NCBI GenBank assembly: GCA_018241325.1
Contig: JAFEEB010000033.1
Coordinates: 42,815-106,814, forward strand
Length of the DNA: 64,000 nt
Reading direction: 5' to 3'
Source: Pseudomonadota bacterium
GTDB lineage: Bacteria; Pseudomonadota; Gammaproteobacteria; Burkholderiales; Burkholderiaceae_C
Shown here: in pieces, positions 2-9,740 of the stretch
Position numbering within the stretch: the first letter of the stretch is position 1
Layout of the letters: every line of letters begins with the position of its first letter
The notes under the pieces: generated by a model
What the model was told of the DNA's origin: nothing
Database searches by the model: none
What the model saw: only the letters and a program-made list of their open reading frames with translations
Translations under genes and position numbers: made by a program

Positions 2-166
2 GCGGCCGCGTTCACGCTGGCATTGCTGGTGCTGGGCGCGGCGCGTGGCACGGTGGTCCTGAGCCGCAACCGTGGCTGGGCGCGCGCGCAGCACTGCGTC
101 ATGGCCACCGTGCTGGGCCTGCTGGCGCTGCGCCTGCTGCTGCCGGTGGGAACGGGCGGGGCATAA
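2..166 (+). CDS. C-terminal end of a membrane protein (partial, 5' end outside window)
   Basis: An open frame runs from the first bases of the window to a TAA at 164-166, giving 54 residues. It contains two hydrophobic stretches (about residues 3-20 and 33-48) separated by a short basic loop rich in Arg, Asn and Trp, so it reads as the last two membrane helices of an integral inner-membrane protein. The chain ends in a short Gly-rich tail. The fragment is too short to place in a family; a LysE-like or other small exporter is possible but only a guess. It is followed by a strong terminator at 237-267, so it ends a transcription unit and is not joined to guaC. Confidence 0.55.
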   Translation, partial: AAAFTLALLVLGAARGTVVLSRNRGWARAQHCVMATVLGLLALRLLLPVGTGGA

Positions 167-3906: not shown

Positions 3907-3982
<76 letters not shown>

Positions 3983-3996
3983 CAAACCTAGCAAAC

Positions 3997-4287: not shown

Positions 4288-4509
4288 TCAGTGAATCGCT
4301 TCATGGTCAATCTCCTTTCGCAATTCGGCCTGCTGCTTTTTTGCTAGCACGGCCCATTCATCGGCGGGCAACACGTCGCCAATCACCAGAATCGGCCAGG
4401 TGACGCCAGCGCGCAAGGCATCGGCCACGCTGGGCCAAACGATGCGCCGGTGCTGGTGCTGGGCACGCCGGTACTCCACGGCGGCCAGGCGGCGGGCAAG
4501 TGCTTTCAT
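4288..4509 (-). CDS. Small hypothetical protein of the integrated element (73 aa)
   Basis: A 73-residue product I do not recognise. It is basic at the N-terminus (KALARRLAAVEYRRAQHQHRR), with a hydrophobic middle (WPILVIGD) and an acidic, amphipathic C-terminal helix (LAKKQQAELRKEIDHEA). Its ATG overlaps the stop of the upstream 70-aa gene by four bases, so the two are translationally coupled. It is the last gene of the element's operon. The N-terminal helix resembles that of the preceding small protein, so these may be related short adaptor-type proteins. Confidence 0.55.
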   Translation of the reverse strand: MKALARRLAAVEYRRAQHQHRRIVWPSVADALRAGVTWPILVIGDVLPADEWAVLAKKQQAELRKEIDHEAIH

Positions 4510-4718
4510 GGCGCGAACACCTCCACCAGCGCGGCCAGCGGATCATCCGCTTCACCGATGGCAAGCACGCTGTCGCCACGCGCACGGCGGCGCTCCACGT
4601 CGGCCAGTACCTGGGCGCGGTCGGGGCCATCGGGCACGATGATGATGGTGGGCAACCCGCCGGGCACCACGCGGCGGCGGCGCTCGATTTTTGTCAGGCG
4701 GTCAGTGAGTCGTTGCAT
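4506..4718 (-). CDS. Small hypothetical protein of the integrated element (70 aa)
   Basis: A 70-residue unknown protein. It begins with a very basic helix (MQRLTDRLTKIERRRR), continues with a strand-like segment LPTIIIVPDGPDRAQ, and ends in an acidic C-terminus (GEADDPLAALVEVF). The start overlaps the end of the 85-aa gene by 17 bases and its own stop overlaps the next start by four, so three genes form one coupled block. No motif reveals a function. Confidence 0.55.
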   Translation of the reverse strand: MQRLTDRLTKIERRRRVVPGGLPTIIIVPDGPDRAQVLADVERRRARGDSVLAIGEADDPLAALVEVFAP

Positions 4719-5911: not shown

Positions 5912-6688
5912 TTAGGCAACGGCGGAAAGGCCCTCCGTTTTCAGGTGGCCAGCGCGGGCCGCTCGGGGTTTTGTTGGGGCCCTCCCCTTGCCCTTCACAC
6001 CTTCACCATCGCCCGTAGGGATGGCAACGTATAAAGGTGGTACATCAGGTGTCCTATGGCTTGGTTTTTCAGGTGCAGGGCCAAACTCGCCGGAAACCCG
6101 CGCGGGCATTGGCTTTGCGCCCTTTTCAGCCATGGTCACGGCGTGTCCTAGTCCGTCGTTCCATGTGTCACGGCGTGTCCTAGTTTTCGGCCCGACTAGG
6201 ACACTTGGTGACGTGGTATCTGTCACGGGGTGTCCTAGGGTTTTCGTTTTTGCCTCAGCGTCGGCAATCAGCGAAAGCCCATGCTCGCGGGACGTGGTGC
6301 GCTTCCATTCGTCGGTCGCTGGCCGGGCCTCGATATGCTTTGCGGGCACTTCGAAACACTCACGGTCGGTCAGGCGGTACAGCGTGGGCAGGCGCTGCCC
6401 GCCCTTGGTGCATCCGCCCTTGCGGGTGATGGCAATCAAGCCCACGGCGCACAAGGCGCGCAGGGCGCGCGCCAGGGTGACATGGTGGCCGATACCGCAG
6501 CGTTTGGCGCGGCTCAGGGGCAGGCTCAAATCGCCGTTGTTGAAGCCCCTCAGCTCGCGTAGCAGGGCAAGGTAGGCCAGCACGTCAAACGGCCCCAGCG
6601 CGGCCCATGCGTGGCTGTCGTACACGTCGGCATAGACGCGCAGACTGTGCCCGCGTGGGTCACGGAATTTCGCCTTGTCGCGGCCCAT
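5912..6688 (-). CDS. Putative replication initiator (winged-helix protein) with iterons inside its gene
   Basis: A 258-residue basic protein. Residues about 20-110 look like a winged-helix DNA-binding domain (helical segment YADVYDSHAWAALGPFDVLAYL, recognition-type helix HHVTLARALRALCAVGLI, wing-like ITRKGGCTKGGQRLPTLYRL). Residues about 110-230 are low-complexity, and the C-terminus is basic and Ala/Pro-rich. Four 18-bp DNA repeats lie inside codons about 150-185 (6135-6239). An N-terminal DNA-binding domain with iterons in the gene's own middle is the arrangement of the lambda O initiator and origin; sequence homology to O is not claimed. The ATG at 6688 overlaps the upstream stop region. 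A plain transcriptional regulator is the alternative. Confidence 0.6.
   Translation of the reverse strand: MGRDKAKFRDPRGHSLRVYADVYDSHAWAALGPFDVLAYLALLRELRGFNNGDLSLPLSRAKRCGIGHHVTLARALRALCAVGLIAITRKGGCTKGGQRLPTLYRLTDRECFEVPAKHIEARPATDEWKRTTSREHGLSLIADAEAKTKTLGHPVTDTTSPSVLVGPKTRTRRDTWNDGLGHAVTMAEKGAKPMPARVSGEFGPAPEKPSHRTPDVPPLYVAIPTGDGEGVKGKGRAPTKPRAARAGHLKTEGLSAVA
6135..6239. repeat. Cluster of four 18-bp iterons (candidate replication origin) inside a coding region
   Basis: GTCACGGCGTGTCCTAGT occurs at 6135-6152 and 6167-6184, a variant at 6222-6239 (GTCACGGGGTGTCCTAGG), and an inverted variant at 6195-6212. Centres are 32, 28 and 27 bp apart. The core GTGTCCTA occurs once more at 6049-6056. 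The copies fall in different reading frames and one is inverted, so the DNA rather than the protein is conserved. Confidence 0.75.
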
Positions 6689-6690
6689 GG

Positions 6691-7062
6691 TCAAACCGCC
6701 TTGCCGCGCTGCGCCAGCCAGCGATGGATGGCCTTGCGGCCCGGCTCGGTCAGGCTATACACGCCAGGTCGGCACACCACGCCATCGCGGTCTATGACGT
6801 GAATACGCGTGCAGGGTAGGTGCTCCTTGCCCAGCCCCAGCGCGCGCACGTTTGCCACCAGGTCGGGGCCATTTGCTGCGCCTGCTTCGCTATCGACGGC
6901 CTCACGCGAAACGCTCGGGCGGCGCAGCAAAAGATGGATCAGGCGCAGCTCGCGCGGGTTGCAGGTGCCTTTGAAAACGGGCGGCTTGCCGGTACAATTC
7001 GGGGTGCTAGGTTCCTCGAAAAATCCCGTTTGCGCCATGGCCGGTGCAGCGGGTTTTTTCAT
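6691..7062 (-). CDS. Small winged-helix/HTH protein of the integrated element (123 aa)
   Basis: A 123-residue protein with an unstructured 30-residue start and a compact domain: NPRELRLIHLLLRRPSVSREAVDSEAG, then NGPDLVANVRALGL, LPCTRIHVIDRDG, and VCRPGVYSLTEPGRKAIHRWL. The order helix, HTH, beta wing, final helix is that of winged-helix proteins found widely in betaproteobacterial prophages. The start overlaps the stop of the AlpA-like gene (TAATG), and its stop lies three bases from the initiator's ATG, so the three are one translational unit. It may act in element replication or gene control. Confidence 0.7.
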   Translation of the reverse strand: MKKPAAPAMAQTGFFEEPSTPNCTGKPPVFKGTCNPRELRLIHLLLRRPSVSREAVDSEAGAANGPDLVANVRALGLGKEHLPCTRIHVIDRDGVVCRPGVYSLTEPGRKAIHRWLAQRGKAV

Positions 7063-7262
7063 TACTGCACCTCCACTTTCTGAGCGTCACGCCACGCCAG
7101 CAGCTCGCCGGTATCGAAAACCGTGCAACGTGCAGACAGGCGGCGCGGACGTGGGAAGTCGTGGCGTTCAGCCACCCAGCGCCATAGCGTGGCCTCGCCA
7201 ATGTCGAACAGCTTCGCGGCCTTCTTGGGGCGAATCGACGGGGGAAATTGGATTACTTGCAT
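7062..7262 (-). CDS. AlpA/excisionase-like transcriptional regulator
   Basis: A 66-residue protein with a MerR/AlpA-type helix-turn-helix: RPKKAAKLFDIGEATLWRWV, followed by the characteristic RHDFPRPRR strand and a C-terminal FDTGELLAWRDAQK helix. AlpA-type proteins act as activators or excisionases in P4-like and phage-inducible islands. Start ATG 7262 has a good GAAAGG Shine-Dalgarno; the upstream in-frame start at 7286 was rejected because it would overlie that site. It is the first gene of the element's main operon, directly downstream of the repeat-rich control region. Confidence 0.85.
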   Translation of the reverse strand: MQVIQFPPSIRPKKAAKLFDIGEATLWRWVAERHDFPRPRRLSARCTVFDTGELLAWRDAQKVEVQ

Positions 7263-7428
7263 CACGACCTTTCGTAAGGTCTGCAAAGCTCCTGATTGGC
7301 CTTGCAGTGATGCGTGTTGTCAGGGCGCAACCCCAGTTGCGGTCAAACCGCAACCCCTATTGCGGCTCGCAAAGCCTTATTTCATGCGGGTTTCGGGGCA
7401 GCAGGCGCAACCCCTCCCGCAACCCCTG
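7263..7428 (-). promoter_or_regulatory. Control region of the element with four GCAACCCC repeats
   Basis: The 166-bp gap upstream of the AlpA-like gene holds two inverted repeats, CGCAA-CCCCAG-TTGCG (7326-7341) and CCGCAA-CCCCTA-TTGCGG (7348-7365), 22 bp apart start to start. Two further CGCAACCCCT copies are at 7406-7415 and 7419-7428, the last adjoining the stop codon of the 220-aa gene. The spacing suggests operator sites for a regulator of the main operon. Confidence 0.6.
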
Positions 7429-8091
7429 CTATTTCATTCGGTGCGAAAAAACGGAGTAACCGGCAGCTTTCGCGGGTGTCTTTTTTTCGCCGGGCAGTAG
7501 AGCGCGGATGCGCGCCTTACTTATCCCAAAACGCTTTGCAGCTTCTTGGATACCGTGCTTCTGGCGGTAGCTGGCAAGTTCGCGCAGGCGCTCGGGTGTC
7601 CACTTTTTGGCGGTGCCTGCATTTGCTATTGCTGGCGTGGCTTCGGTGGGCGCATCCATCGCCAGCGGTTTGCCATAGTGGCCGGGCGTCAGTCCGACAA
7701 ATTCAGCAAGGTCGCTGCGAACTGCAAACTGTCTCGACATTGCCCACTCGACACCAGCTTTCGGCGTGAACACCTCGGGAAGCTCACCGGCCTTCTGCGC
7801 CAGTTCCACGGCTCGCAGCGCGCGCGCAGGATCAGGGAACGTCAACGGATCAACAATCGCGCCTGCAAGTTCAGCAGCGCCCCAATATGGCAAGCTGCAA
7901 AGTTCATAGCACTCCAGAAACTCGCGCGCCTCGGTTTTGGTCTTGCTGAACGCGCTTTCAAATGCCGGGTCAGGCTCGGTTTCAAGCGCTTCACGCACGA
8001 TTGCCGCTGCGACAAAATGAACGCCGGAAACGGTCAGGAACTGCGCCAGGTTGTCGCCGTCGCCTTGCGGCGGTTTTACCTTCTTGCCCAT
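7429..8091 (-). CDS. Hypothetical protein with C-terminal HTH, next to the integrase (220 aa)
   Basis: A 220-residue protein. Residues 1-165 are helical and acidic without a motif I recognise (includes ARALRAVELAQKAGELPEVF). Residues about 166-210 form a probable helix-turn-helix: KKWTPERLRELASYRQ, then IQEAAKRFGISKARIRALL, with a basic tail. Its ATG lies one base past the integrase stop (TGA-A-ATG), so it is co-translated with int. It ends within the GCAACCCC repeat region and is therefore a good candidate for the protein that binds those repeats, possibly as repressor or excision-control factor. Confidence 0.65.
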   Translation of the reverse strand: MGKKVKPPQGDGDNLAQFLTVSGVHFVAAAIVREALETEPDPAFESAFSKTKTEAREFLECYELCSLPYWGAAELAGAIVDPLTFPDPARALRAVELAQKAGELPEVFTPKAGVEWAMSRQFAVRSDLAEFVGLTPGHYGKPLAMDAPTEATPAIANAGTAKKWTPERLRELASYRQKHGIQEAAKRFGISKARIRALLPGEKKTPAKAAGYSVFSHRMK

Positions 8092-8092
8092 T

Positions 8093-9358
8093 TCACGCCT
8101 CCCGTGCGCTGCGAATCGGCACCACGTCTGCCGGGGCCTGCACGGTGTCGCAGTGCGCGGCCCAATCGGCCATCAATGCGCGGCGTTTTTCAAACAGCGT
8201 AGAGCGCAGATAGGCGGCTTCTACCTTGTCGGGCAACTGGTGCGCCAGCGCGTGTTCTGCCACTTCACGCGGGTAGTTCGTGGCCTCTGCGGCCCATACC
8301 CGGAACGTGCTGCGAAAGCCATGCACAAGGGCGGGCTTGCCGGTGCGGTCTGTCCAGATTGGATCAGGCGCGTTCATCCTGCGGATCACGGCCAGCAGGG
8401 ACATATCCGACAACGCGGCACCATGGCGGCCTTTGAAAATCAAGCCCTCCATGCCATCGGCCTGCACGGCCTGCAACACGCGCAGCGCGGCGGCGCTCAG
8501 GGGTACATCGTGCGGCTTGCTTGCCTTCATGCGCTCGCCCGGGACGTGCCACACGCCTGCATCAAAGTCGATTTCGGCCCACGCTGCGCCGCGCACTTCG
8601 CCTGAACGTGCGGCGGTCAGGATGGCAAATTCCAGCGCCCGCGCGGCCTCGCCTTGACGCTGGCGAAGCGCCTGCATGAAAGCGCCCGCTTGCTGCCATG
8701 GCAGCGCCGGATGGTTCTCAACTTTCGCCACCTTGGACGGCTTGGGCAACAGCTTGTCTAGGTGGCCTTTCCAGCGGGCCGGGTTGTCGCCAGCTCGAAA
8801 ACCTTGCACGCGGCACCAATCGAGGATGCTTTCAATGCGCCCTCGCAGGCGTGAAGCGGTTTCGCTTTTGCTTGTCCAGATGGGCAACAGCACGCGCGAT
8901 ATTTCCGCCGTGCCAACGTCGGCAACGTTCATTGATCCAATCACCGGATTGGCGAAATTCTCAATGGTGCTGCGCCATTGGTAGCCGTGCTTGGCGTTGC
9001 GCCAGCCTGATTCATGGGCGGCGATGTAGCGGCTTGCAGCGTCACGAAACAGCAGCGCCTTTGCCTCAGCGCGGCGGCGTTCGCGCTGCGCCTCTTGCCG
9101 GGCCTCGATAGGGTCTATCTTGTCGGTCAGCAGCTTGCGGGCCTCGCGTGCCCTCTCGCGTGCCTCAGCCAGCGTAAAGGCGTTCAGGCCACCCAAGCCC
9201 ATCTCTCGCGTGCGCTTGTCACGGGTGAAGCGCAGTACCCACGATTTGCTGCCACCGGGGGCAACCTGCAAATACAGCCCGGCACCATCGGCGTAGTAGC
9301 CCGGCTTCTTGGTGCGTGTGACCTGCAGCGCGTTCAGCCTCTCAATTGCCCTTGCCAT
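8093..9358 (-). CDS. int: Phage-type tyrosine integrase (P4-like)
   Basis: Site-specific recombinase that would insert and excise the element at tRNA-Ala. The 421 residues show an N-terminal arm-binding domain (about 1-90, GYYADGAGLYLQV and TLAEARERAREAR), a central SAM-like core-binding domain (about 105-200), and a catalytic domain with Arg251 in TAARSGEVRG, His346-x-x-Arg349 in HGFRSTF, a downstream His in HALAH (about 373) and nucleophile Tyr383 in AAYLRST. All catalytic positions are present, so it should be active. The gene faces inward from the attR end, and possible arm sites lie just upstream of it. Confidence 0.95.
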   Translation of the reverse strand: MARAIERLNALQVTRTKKPGYYADGAGLYLQVAPGGSKSWVLRFTRDKRTREMGLGGLNAFTLAEARERAREARKLLTDKIDPIEARQEAQRERRRAEAKALLFRDAASRYIAAHESGWRNAKHGYQWRSTIENFANPVIGSMNVADVGTAEISRVLLPIWTSKSETASRLRGRIESILDWCRVQGFRAGDNPARWKGHLDKLLPKPSKVAKVENHPALPWQQAGAFMQALRQRQGEAARALEFAILTAARSGEVRGAAWAEIDFDAGVWHVPGERMKASKPHDVPLSAAALRVLQAVQADGMEGLIFKGRHGAALSDMSLLAVIRRMNAPDPIWTDRTGKPALVHGFRSTFRVWAAEATNYPREVAEHALAHQLPDKVEAAYLRSTLFEKRRALMADWAAHCDTVQAPADVVPIRSAREA

Positions 9359-9505: not shown

Positions 9506-9522
9506 CCTCCTCTCCACCACAA
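9506..9522 (+). other. attR: distal core attachment site
   Basis: Exact 17-bp copy of the tRNA 3' end (CCTCCTCTCCACCACAA). Directly beyond it, at 9526-9557, lies a strong terminator that would have followed the tRNA before integration. Confidence 0.9.
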
Positions 9523-9525
9523 TTC

Positions 9526-9557
9526 AAAAGCCAACCGTTTGCGGTTGGCTTTTTTTT
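9526..9557 (+). terminator. Original tRNA-Ala terminator, displaced by the element
   Basis: AAAGCCAACCG and CGGTTGGCTTT pair around TTTG and are followed by a run of seven T. It starts four bases past attR; in the empty chromosome it would have lain directly behind tRNA-Ala. The reverse strand also has A-rich/T-rich ends, so it may act both ways. Confidence 0.8.
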
Positions 9558-9740
9558 CGCCCGCGCCCGGTCCCCCGTGGTCATGCGCAAAAAGACAGTG
9601 TGACGCCTCCGTTGCCGCAAAATGAAGGCACCCGTGATGGTGGGCAGCCGAGCAACGCGCTCTCGAGCACGTTGACGATGCCGCTGCATTTGATCCAACG
9701 ACCACTGTCAATGGCATGACGAGACCGCAAGGAGAGGGGC

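Follow-up and report, generated by a model that had tools for sequence, protein, structure and literature searches.

A putative replication initiator gene carrying its own iterons in a 5.5-kb island integrated at tRNA-Ala

Within the window, the stretch of 64,000 nucleotides analysed here, a gene for 258 amino acids (5912-6688) contains a cluster of repeats in its own coding sequence. What do these repeats do, and which protein reads them? We consider it very probable that the gene encodes a replication initiator and that its DNA also holds the origin of the island in which it lies.

An array of five dyads within the gene

With up to three mismatches, the 18-mer GTCACGGCGTGTCCTAGT occurred four times in the 64-kb window, all at 6135-6239 (6135-6152, 6167-6184, 6195-6212 in inverted orientation, and 6222-6239). 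The chance level was 0.04 copies on average, and none of 100 dinucleotide shuffles attained four; the four near-identical 18-bp repeats of the original prediction were thereby borne out. GTGTCCTA was found five times in the window, always within 6049-6237, against an expectation of 0.34. In the whole genome (3.82 Mb), the 16-base pattern TAGGACACNNNGTGWC with at most one mismatch gave five matches, four of them exact and all in the array, the fifth elsewhere with one mismatch; its reversed control gave three.

After re-centring, the repeats proved to be imperfect 13-bp dyads, GWCACNNNGTGWC, centred at 6228, 6206, 6173, 6141 and 6047, the last being a fifth copy with one weak half. The dyad centres are spaced 22/33/32/94 bp apart, close to 2, 3, 3 and 9 helical turns. 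These distances replace the 27-32 bp given originally, because the 18-mers sat off the symmetry axis. A "fifth core" noted earlier at 6049-6056 fits part of the fifth iteron, which has one strong half. The array occupies the distal half of the 258-aa gene, in DNA coding for a tail modelled as disordered:

6222..6234, minus strand: iteron 1, GACACCCCGTGAC
6200..6212, minus strand: iteron 2, GTCACCAAGTGTC
6167..6179, minus strand: iteron 3, GACACGCCGTGAC
6135..6147, minus strand: iteron 4, GACACGCCGTGAC
6041..6053, minus strand: iteron 5, GACACCTGATGTA, one strong half; position conserved in homologues

The 5.5-kb island

The gene had been placed in a small island, and the flanks agree with this: a 17-bp att sequence at tRNA-Ala is duplicated, in two identical copies, and three congeners have the site empty. 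Among 29 genomes of the genus, own genome included, the joined flanks were unbroken in G787 (95%), G800 (91%) and G802 (90% up to base 113). The junction query split into 1-79 and 63-115 in the genome that holds the window. From the duplication and the empty-site junctions, the element is 5,537 bp long. It contains nine named ORFs, all on the minus strand: the integrase, AlpA-like, 220-aa, 123-aa and initiator genes and four others. The features of the island outside the array are as follows (the initiator gene and the box are listed further below):

3907..3982, plus strand: tRNA-Ala (CGC), integration target
3969..3985, no strand assigned: att copy at the tRNA 3' end, CCTCCTCTCCACCACAA, 17 bp, the overlap of the junction-query halves
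4288..4509, minus strand: 73-aa ORF from the ORF list
4506..4718, minus strand: 70-aa protein, 47% identical to one in L012
4702..4977, minus strand: 91-aa protein, 72% identical to one in L012
5035..5817, minus strand: 260-aa protein without convincing family match
5947..5968, minus strand: 22-bp stretch in the C-terminal codons of the initiator, identical in L012/L152
6691..7062, minus strand: 123-aa protein directly preceding the initiator; L016 and L018 have relatives (about 50% identical) in the same position before theirs
7062..7286, minus strand: AlpA-like excisionase/regulator, 74 aa (Pfam Phage_AlpA 2.9e-5, above cut-off; phrog_66)
7429..8091, minus strand: 220-aa protein with C-terminal helix-turn-helix (HTH Pfam models below cut-off)
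8093..9358, minus strand: tyrosine integrase, 421 aa (Pfam Phage_integrase 2.4e-12, Arm-DNA-bind_3 4.8e-21)
9506..9522, no strand assigned: second att copy, 17-bp repeat, from the junction query

The 220-aa protein also matched phrog_323, 'transcriptional regulator, D5-like', at 7e-4 over residues 159-197 only. Scans of the nine element proteins with Pfam and PHROGs identified neither a primase nor a helicase-loader gene, and no packaging genes were recognised in the window island. Rfam at the gathering threshold returned the tRNA only, PADLOC found no defence genes among the seven proteins tried, and the 260-aa protein had no relative in 50,697 phage records.

Two further elements were noted between and beside the genes. 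Four copies of CGCAACCCC (~7326, 7349, 7406 and 7418) lie in 7319-7430, between the AlpA and 220-aa genes, and are possibly operator sites for AlpA or the 220-aa protein. Directly after the second att copy, 9523-9560 holds a hairpin with a T run (AAAAGCCAACCG...CGGTTGGCTTTTTT), apparently the tRNA-Ala terminator separated from its gene by the insertion; the minus-strand reading of this hairpin was picked up by the island scan.

Related islands have their own borders. One with a distant initiator is ~5.9 kb long, lies at tRNA-His with a 49-bp att repeat, and has two small genes and the 22-bp stretch in common with the window island. The window sequence 5947-5968 is identical to 1528-1549 of L012, the initiators of the two being only distantly related. 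Together with the 91-aa and 70-aa genes shared with L012, this 22-bp stretch suggests, from sequence comparison, an exchange of replicon modules between islands; the shared 3' module was not found in IMG/VR. In L038 (5576-9682), a relative of the initiator stands beside genes for a major head protein, head protease, portal, HNH and terminase small subunit. Such a head module beside the initiator is as in capsid-forming PICIs.

The sites could be genuine origin iterons in an island that has decayed to a relic and no longer replicates or moves. We regard this as unlikely, although worth serious attention: packaging and primase genes are not recognisable, iteron 5 has one weak half, and none of the five other genomes of the genus in the family draw matched the initiator, which gives no hint that the island spread recently inside the genus. 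Set against decay, the integrase, AlpA-like and initiator genes are all open, the two 17-bp att copies are identical, and the four main iterons are intact. A Pelomonas relative with a 64%-identical initiator is equally small (~4.6 kb) and has its own att repeat, a duplicated tRNA-Thr end.

The putative initiator protein, its relatives and the conserved box

The gene and the parts of it that bear on DNA binding and origin function are these:

5912..6688, minus strand: putative initiator gene, 258 aa from ATG 6688 or 260 aa from TTG 6694; O-like PHROG match and homologues
6248..6631, minus strand: coding part of the predicted winged-helix fold (AlphaFold2; residues 22-149 counted from TTG)
6467..6487, minus strand: start of the predicted recognition helix, residues 70-76 (H H V T L A R), HHV being the candidate specificity motif
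6019..6040, minus strand: putative conserved origin box, CCACCTTTATACGTTGCCATCC, follows iteron 5

AlphaFold2 (23 sequences) predicted a confident winged helix over residues ~22-149, in line with the DNA-binding domain expected of a winged-helix protein; most ten-residue blocks had a pLDDT of at least 90, with one block at 74. The recognition helix of the model comprises residues 71-84. From residue ~156 the tail was of low confidence, without secondary structure, and modelled as disordered. An O-like C-terminal domain was not recognised in the window protein by AlphaFold2 or by Pfam and PHROGs profile scans.

Profile matches were weak and pointed mainly to replication. phrog_18020, 'replication initiation O-like', matched the window protein at 8.9e-4 over residues 40-96 only. 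No Pfam family matched the window protein at E 1 or better, and the 23 relatives gave one Pfam match, MarR_2 at 0.01. In PHROGs, these relatives hit scattered initiator, O-like and DnaD-like loader families, each matched by at most four members. Foldseek against the PDB gave nothing at E < 0.001, the entries listed being generic winged helices (MarR, CodY, replication terminator, DnaD). Against viral models its best matches, none below 0.001, were helix-turn-helix and replicon-initiation proteins. Comparison of the fold with lambda O and other winged helices thus gave weak structural matches, which include two viral entries annotated as lambda O N-terminal among the 50 best shown.

Homologues were collected by successive searches, each counting the own genome. 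A single-protein search at 0.001 found them in 15 of 399 genomes of the host's family, some marginal; a profile search of this family at 1e-8 raised this to 46 of 399. The profile at 1e-6 matched 35 of 399 genomes of the order (32 of the 159 genera in that draw), and a second profile at 1e-10 matched 14 of 350 genomes of the class. Another 19 named genome loci and 27 IMG/VR loci were added. The 143 loci with a match gave 95 proteins, window included, after removal of identical ones only, so that near-identical proteins (for example L038-L042 and L046-L049) still counted apart. The family was nearly missing from catalogues: four queries with initiator proteins gave 1, 1, 0 and 2 matches in 50,697 phage records, and two such queries gave one match each in 72,556 plasmid records. 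A search of open-licence PMC papers found none on the initiator family or its residue code.

The sole phage-record match of both the window protein and the L038 protein was L062 (PP003913.1, 3747-4214), in a 16-kb Pseudomonas aeruginosa record with integrase and Rhs genes. This record looks more like an island than a phage.

An array was called significant when it consisted of 13-mers, lay in the 480 bases that follow codon 130 and beat at least 98 of 100 dinucleotide shuffles. With one of the 95 loci left out as too short, such an array was present in the same region in 75 of 94 homologous loci and absent in 19 by the same shuffle test. Among loci fetched later, 18 of 21 rows reached this significance, three of the rows repeating earlier loci. 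The closest homologue, L002 (same place as L016; 64% identical over residues 5-227), has five copies spaced 22/33/32/94. With this homologue and the 75 arrays, the repeats are neither absent nor scrambled in close homologues of the gene. In 23 loci compared, selected for having all five copies, the spacing of the close family was 22/33/32-33/94-105, give or take a base. Distant members have other regular layouts, such as 33/33/45 and 32/43/44, and L215, L217 and L220 are spaced ~22/43/44.

The gene ends before the array in L051, L215 and L220, and inside it in L062; in these four loci, all or most of the iteron DNA is non-coding, its distance being roughly the usual one. Since the gene stops before or inside the array in some loci, the position of the array does not depend on an open frame.

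A second conserved element follows iteron 5. In all 34 loci in which iteron 5 had been placed, TRCCA starts 13-15 nt past it, against a background of 1.7% of positions for an 8-base window. In 19 aligned loci of the close family, iteron 5 is followed by C-A/T-C-C-T or similar, a short variable stretch and TRCCA. Distant members have the form CACC-TCTAGA or CTATAGA-TRCCATCT (pattern matched in 29 of 39 loci), and some class-level members CACCTTTATATAT-TRCCAT. A profile from 27 distant loci, whose training sites had been picked with a pattern already requiring TAG and RCCA, ranked the close-family site first among 2168 positions in 13 of the 34 loci and among the best three in 16; in L058, L037 and L042 the position so ranked was not the usual one. 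Because the profile trained on distant loci ranks few sites first, the members share the position and the core letters of the box to a greater degree than its full sequence.

We infer that the box is an opening or loading site. There is no strongly AT-rich tract around iteron 5 in the window, where the A+T content was 0.45-0.60 per 20-nt bin. A strongly AT-rich unwinding tract was rejected, as the bins reach 0.60 at most. A scan of the island listed no canonical sigma-70 promoter at the box.

Could the protein instead be a transcription regulator of its own or downstream genes, with the repeats as its operators at the gene end? The winged helix resembles the DNA-binding domains of MarR and CodY (one relative matching MarR_2, as above), the sites precede downstream genes, and a phased array would suit a repressor too. 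We nevertheless find this improbable. The four to five regular sites are a long way past the gene start, many homologues have them within the gene, and they are accompanied by a fixed box at which the sigma-70 island scan lists no promoter. Most profile matches are to replication initiators, and the phage-record relative carries the annotation replication protein O. Between iterons 4 and 5 of L029 and L045, inspection by eye showed a terminator-like hairpin with a T run. That the gene holds iterons read by its own product is well supported by the co-variation described below.

The constraint on the repeats was examined at the level of DNA and of peptide. As originally described, the copies occupy more than one reading frame and both orientations: relative to the gene strand, the iterons are in frames 1, 2, 2, 1 and 2, with one 18-mer inverted, and they encode five different peptides, GHPVT, TSPSV, RTRRD, GHAVT and RTPDV. 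Two frames and different peptides mean that the constraint acts on DNA. The tail codons were then redrawn synonymously 500 times from the gene's own codon usage. The window had a repeat score of 12, the best redraw reached 10, and none of the 500 matched the observed score, so the claim that the repetition is kept at the DNA level held. The 26 close loci tested all behaved alike, with no more than 5 of 500 redraws attaining the observed score in each. That the sites are constrained as peptide repeats of a low-complexity tail, with DNA repetition as a by-product, has practically no weight left and was rejected: similar peptides are read from the copies in several homologues (e.g. TDSDSEA/NDSDSEA in L038), but the frames, orientations and five peptides of the window, the failure of synonymous redraws to reproduce the arrays in 26 of 26 loci, and the L051 array wholly beyond the stop codon all contradict it.

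Half-site specificity and comparison with known systems

If the protein reads its iterons, its DNA-binding residues may change with them, and co-variation of the repeats with the N-terminal domain had been proposed as a check. With the half-sites superposed about the dyad axis, 60 of the 61 loci that have a clean dyad show a C at position d4. In these 61 of 94 loci (33 were dropped for a weak array or weak dyad), the column with the highest normalised mutual information, out of 132, was residue 72 for d3 and residue 71 for both d5 and d6; both residues lost their top ranks after product correction. In a window test with weighted sequences, corrected for how similar the remaining domain is, the top three of 128 five-column windows for the core d3/d5/d6 (1825 pairs) were 72-76, 71-75 and 70-74. 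Window 70-74 ranked first for the combined core when only the pairs above 35% identity (715) were used. Single bases gave a mixed picture: over all pairs, d5 has other windows ahead, and window 70-74 is at rank 51 for d3 with pairs above 35% identity.

By reading the sequences, we derived a rule for the close family (profile score of 200 or more). An A before T-L goes with TTCA and an S with TTCG; P followed by T, S or V goes with TACA; S/E-T goes with TGCA; and H-H, as in the window and L002, goes with GACA. In 41 of 42 close loci, this rule picks out the best-scoring of the five half-site types; shuffled labels gave a mean of 12.5 and a maximum of 24 in 10,000. It was right in 35 of 35 clean-dyad loci and in 6 of 7 loci dropped before; neither set was blind, and the arrays of the seven had been seen before the rule was written. 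A blind test on later loci gave 3 of 3 (L191, L205 and L207, the last two nearly identical); the loci fetched later included four new members of the close family, the motif of the fourth, L210, being outside the coverage of the rule. Outside the close family, none of four predictions was right, and extension of the rule to distant members was rejected.

Kinship was taken into account with a tree built without the recognition helix. Two later close loci (L191 and L205) were added and L207 left out, being nearly identical to L205, which gave 44 loci. Over these, the half-site requires at least 14 changes, the rule label 13, and both jointly 14; with shuffled tips the number was 21.5 on average and 16 at least. 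The difference between 14 and 21.5 indicates that kinship explains part of the code. The nearest relative shares the half-site in 28 of the 44 loci and the rule is right in 43; it is right in 15 of the 16 loci whose nearest relative differs in half-site. The sharpest contrast is between L044 and L047, 0.06 substitutions apart, with KASA/TTCA and TAPT/TACA, respectively.

Iterons 3 and 4 of L044 (locus 6841-7520) and iteron 3 of L048 (locus 6995-7675, close kin of L047) are hybrid sites with one half of each type. Judged by their letters, these iterons look like a specificity switch under way.

Branch co-change by Fitch parsimony placed residue 76 first of 132 for d5. Residue 72 ranked 11th for d3 and 4th for the combined core; residue 71 ranked 12th for d5, seventh for d5+d6 and 54th for the combined core. 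The top position for d3 went to residue 60. Co-variation with the N-terminal domain was thus upheld by the rule, the window test and the tree comparison, whereas the branch co-change ranks were mixed.

Taking the array, its DNA-level constraint, its near-regular spacing, the co-variation of residues and half-site, the box and the island borders with the fold as predicted, which we count among the computed results, our analysis best fits a lambda-O-like initiator-origin cassette in a minimal island, and we hold this with considerable confidence. In the proposed mechanism, the N-terminal winged helix would bind the five dyad iterons in the tail-coding DNA, probably as a dimer. Lined up on one helical face, the bound copies would assemble into a nucleoprotein complex, which may open the DNA at the CACC-AT-TRCCA box beside iteron 5 and may recruit the replicative helicase. 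The excised 5.5-kb island would then replicate as a circle, presumably in a satellite, helper-dependent way of life.

To a wider view we give about equal weight for and against: a widespread family of island replicons in which two or three residues at the start of the recognition helix specify the half-site, and in which the in-gene copies switch together, sometimes via hybrids. If this is true, the residue code would split islands into mutually blind replication groups, driven perhaps by rival elements or by initiator-mimicking phage nucleases. With this natural series of proteins and sites, an old question can be tested directly, namely how an initiator and the several copies of its site shift specificity jointly when the sites also encode the protein. 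Regularly spaced dyads with a TRCCA box provide a search signature for the replicons of unassigned islands. Origins inside initiator genes are already described for lambda and a few plasmids (PMC7466680, PMC3155836); here one layout recurs in elements almost missing from phage and plasmid catalogues.

In lambda-O type initiators, the C-terminal domain binds the helicase loader P. No P-like partner was recognised here. We propose that the window protein works like lambda O and do not claim that it belongs to the O family, because a C-terminal partner-binding domain and an AT-rich tract were sought and not found. The layout foreseen by the original prediction, iterons inside their own initiator gene, is found in the window and in homologues, and the expected lack of obvious sequence relation to lambda O agrees with O-like profile matches that are only weak. 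Unlike in lambda O, the iterons lie in a disordered tail, and past the stop codon in many relatives; the fifth iteron is 94-105 bp away, and a short CACC-AT-TRCCA box replaces the AT-rich tract. The lambda origin is described as lying in the middle of the O gene with four iterons, and lambdoid O/ori-lambda systems (lambda, Stx phages) likewise have several iterons within the initiator's own gene (PMC7466680); inhibition of the lambda origin is treated in PMC3349717.

Among plasmids, PMC3155836 describes origins inside the initiator gene for repABC (in repC), pAD1, pSX267, pAM-beta-1, pLS32, pSK1 and pSK41, with iterons there except in repABC. Unlike the present gene, repC is described there with an AT-rich tract and no iterons. 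These are plasmids, not integrated islands, and we liken them to our locus by their description only.

Gram-negative PICIs have a rep-ori with two sets of iterons around an AT-rich stretch, the presumed melting site (PMC6092414). As in these, int, alpA and a unidirectional gene order are present in the window island, and int, alpA and rep occur with the origin, a putative one here, on the 3' side of rep (PMC6092414). They differ in the primase-type Pri-Rep reported in that work, no primase domain being found in the nine element proteins here. The prototype PICMI of Vibrionaceae is described with six genes, including int and alpA, without capsid remodelling genes, and at fis (PMC10803314). The window island resembles it in its minimal gene set with int and alpA and without capsid remodelling genes; however, the models given in PMC10803314 require a primase gene (DUF3987 and DUF5906) and the prototype lies at fis, neither of which was seen here.

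The PLE satellites of Vibrio cholerae offer a likeness to the co-variation. Their RepA domains co-vary with the origins, replication is confined to cognate pairs, and the initiator is mimicked by a phage nuclease (PMC8263062). In both systems, the DNA-binding domain of the initiator co-varies with its origin or, here, its putative origin. According to the PLE account, the initiator there has a RepA_N domain, the iterons are non-coding, and the PLEs compared fall into two sequence groups (PMC8263062); here, in contrast, a few residues are resolved over five half-site types, and the putative origin lies within the gene.
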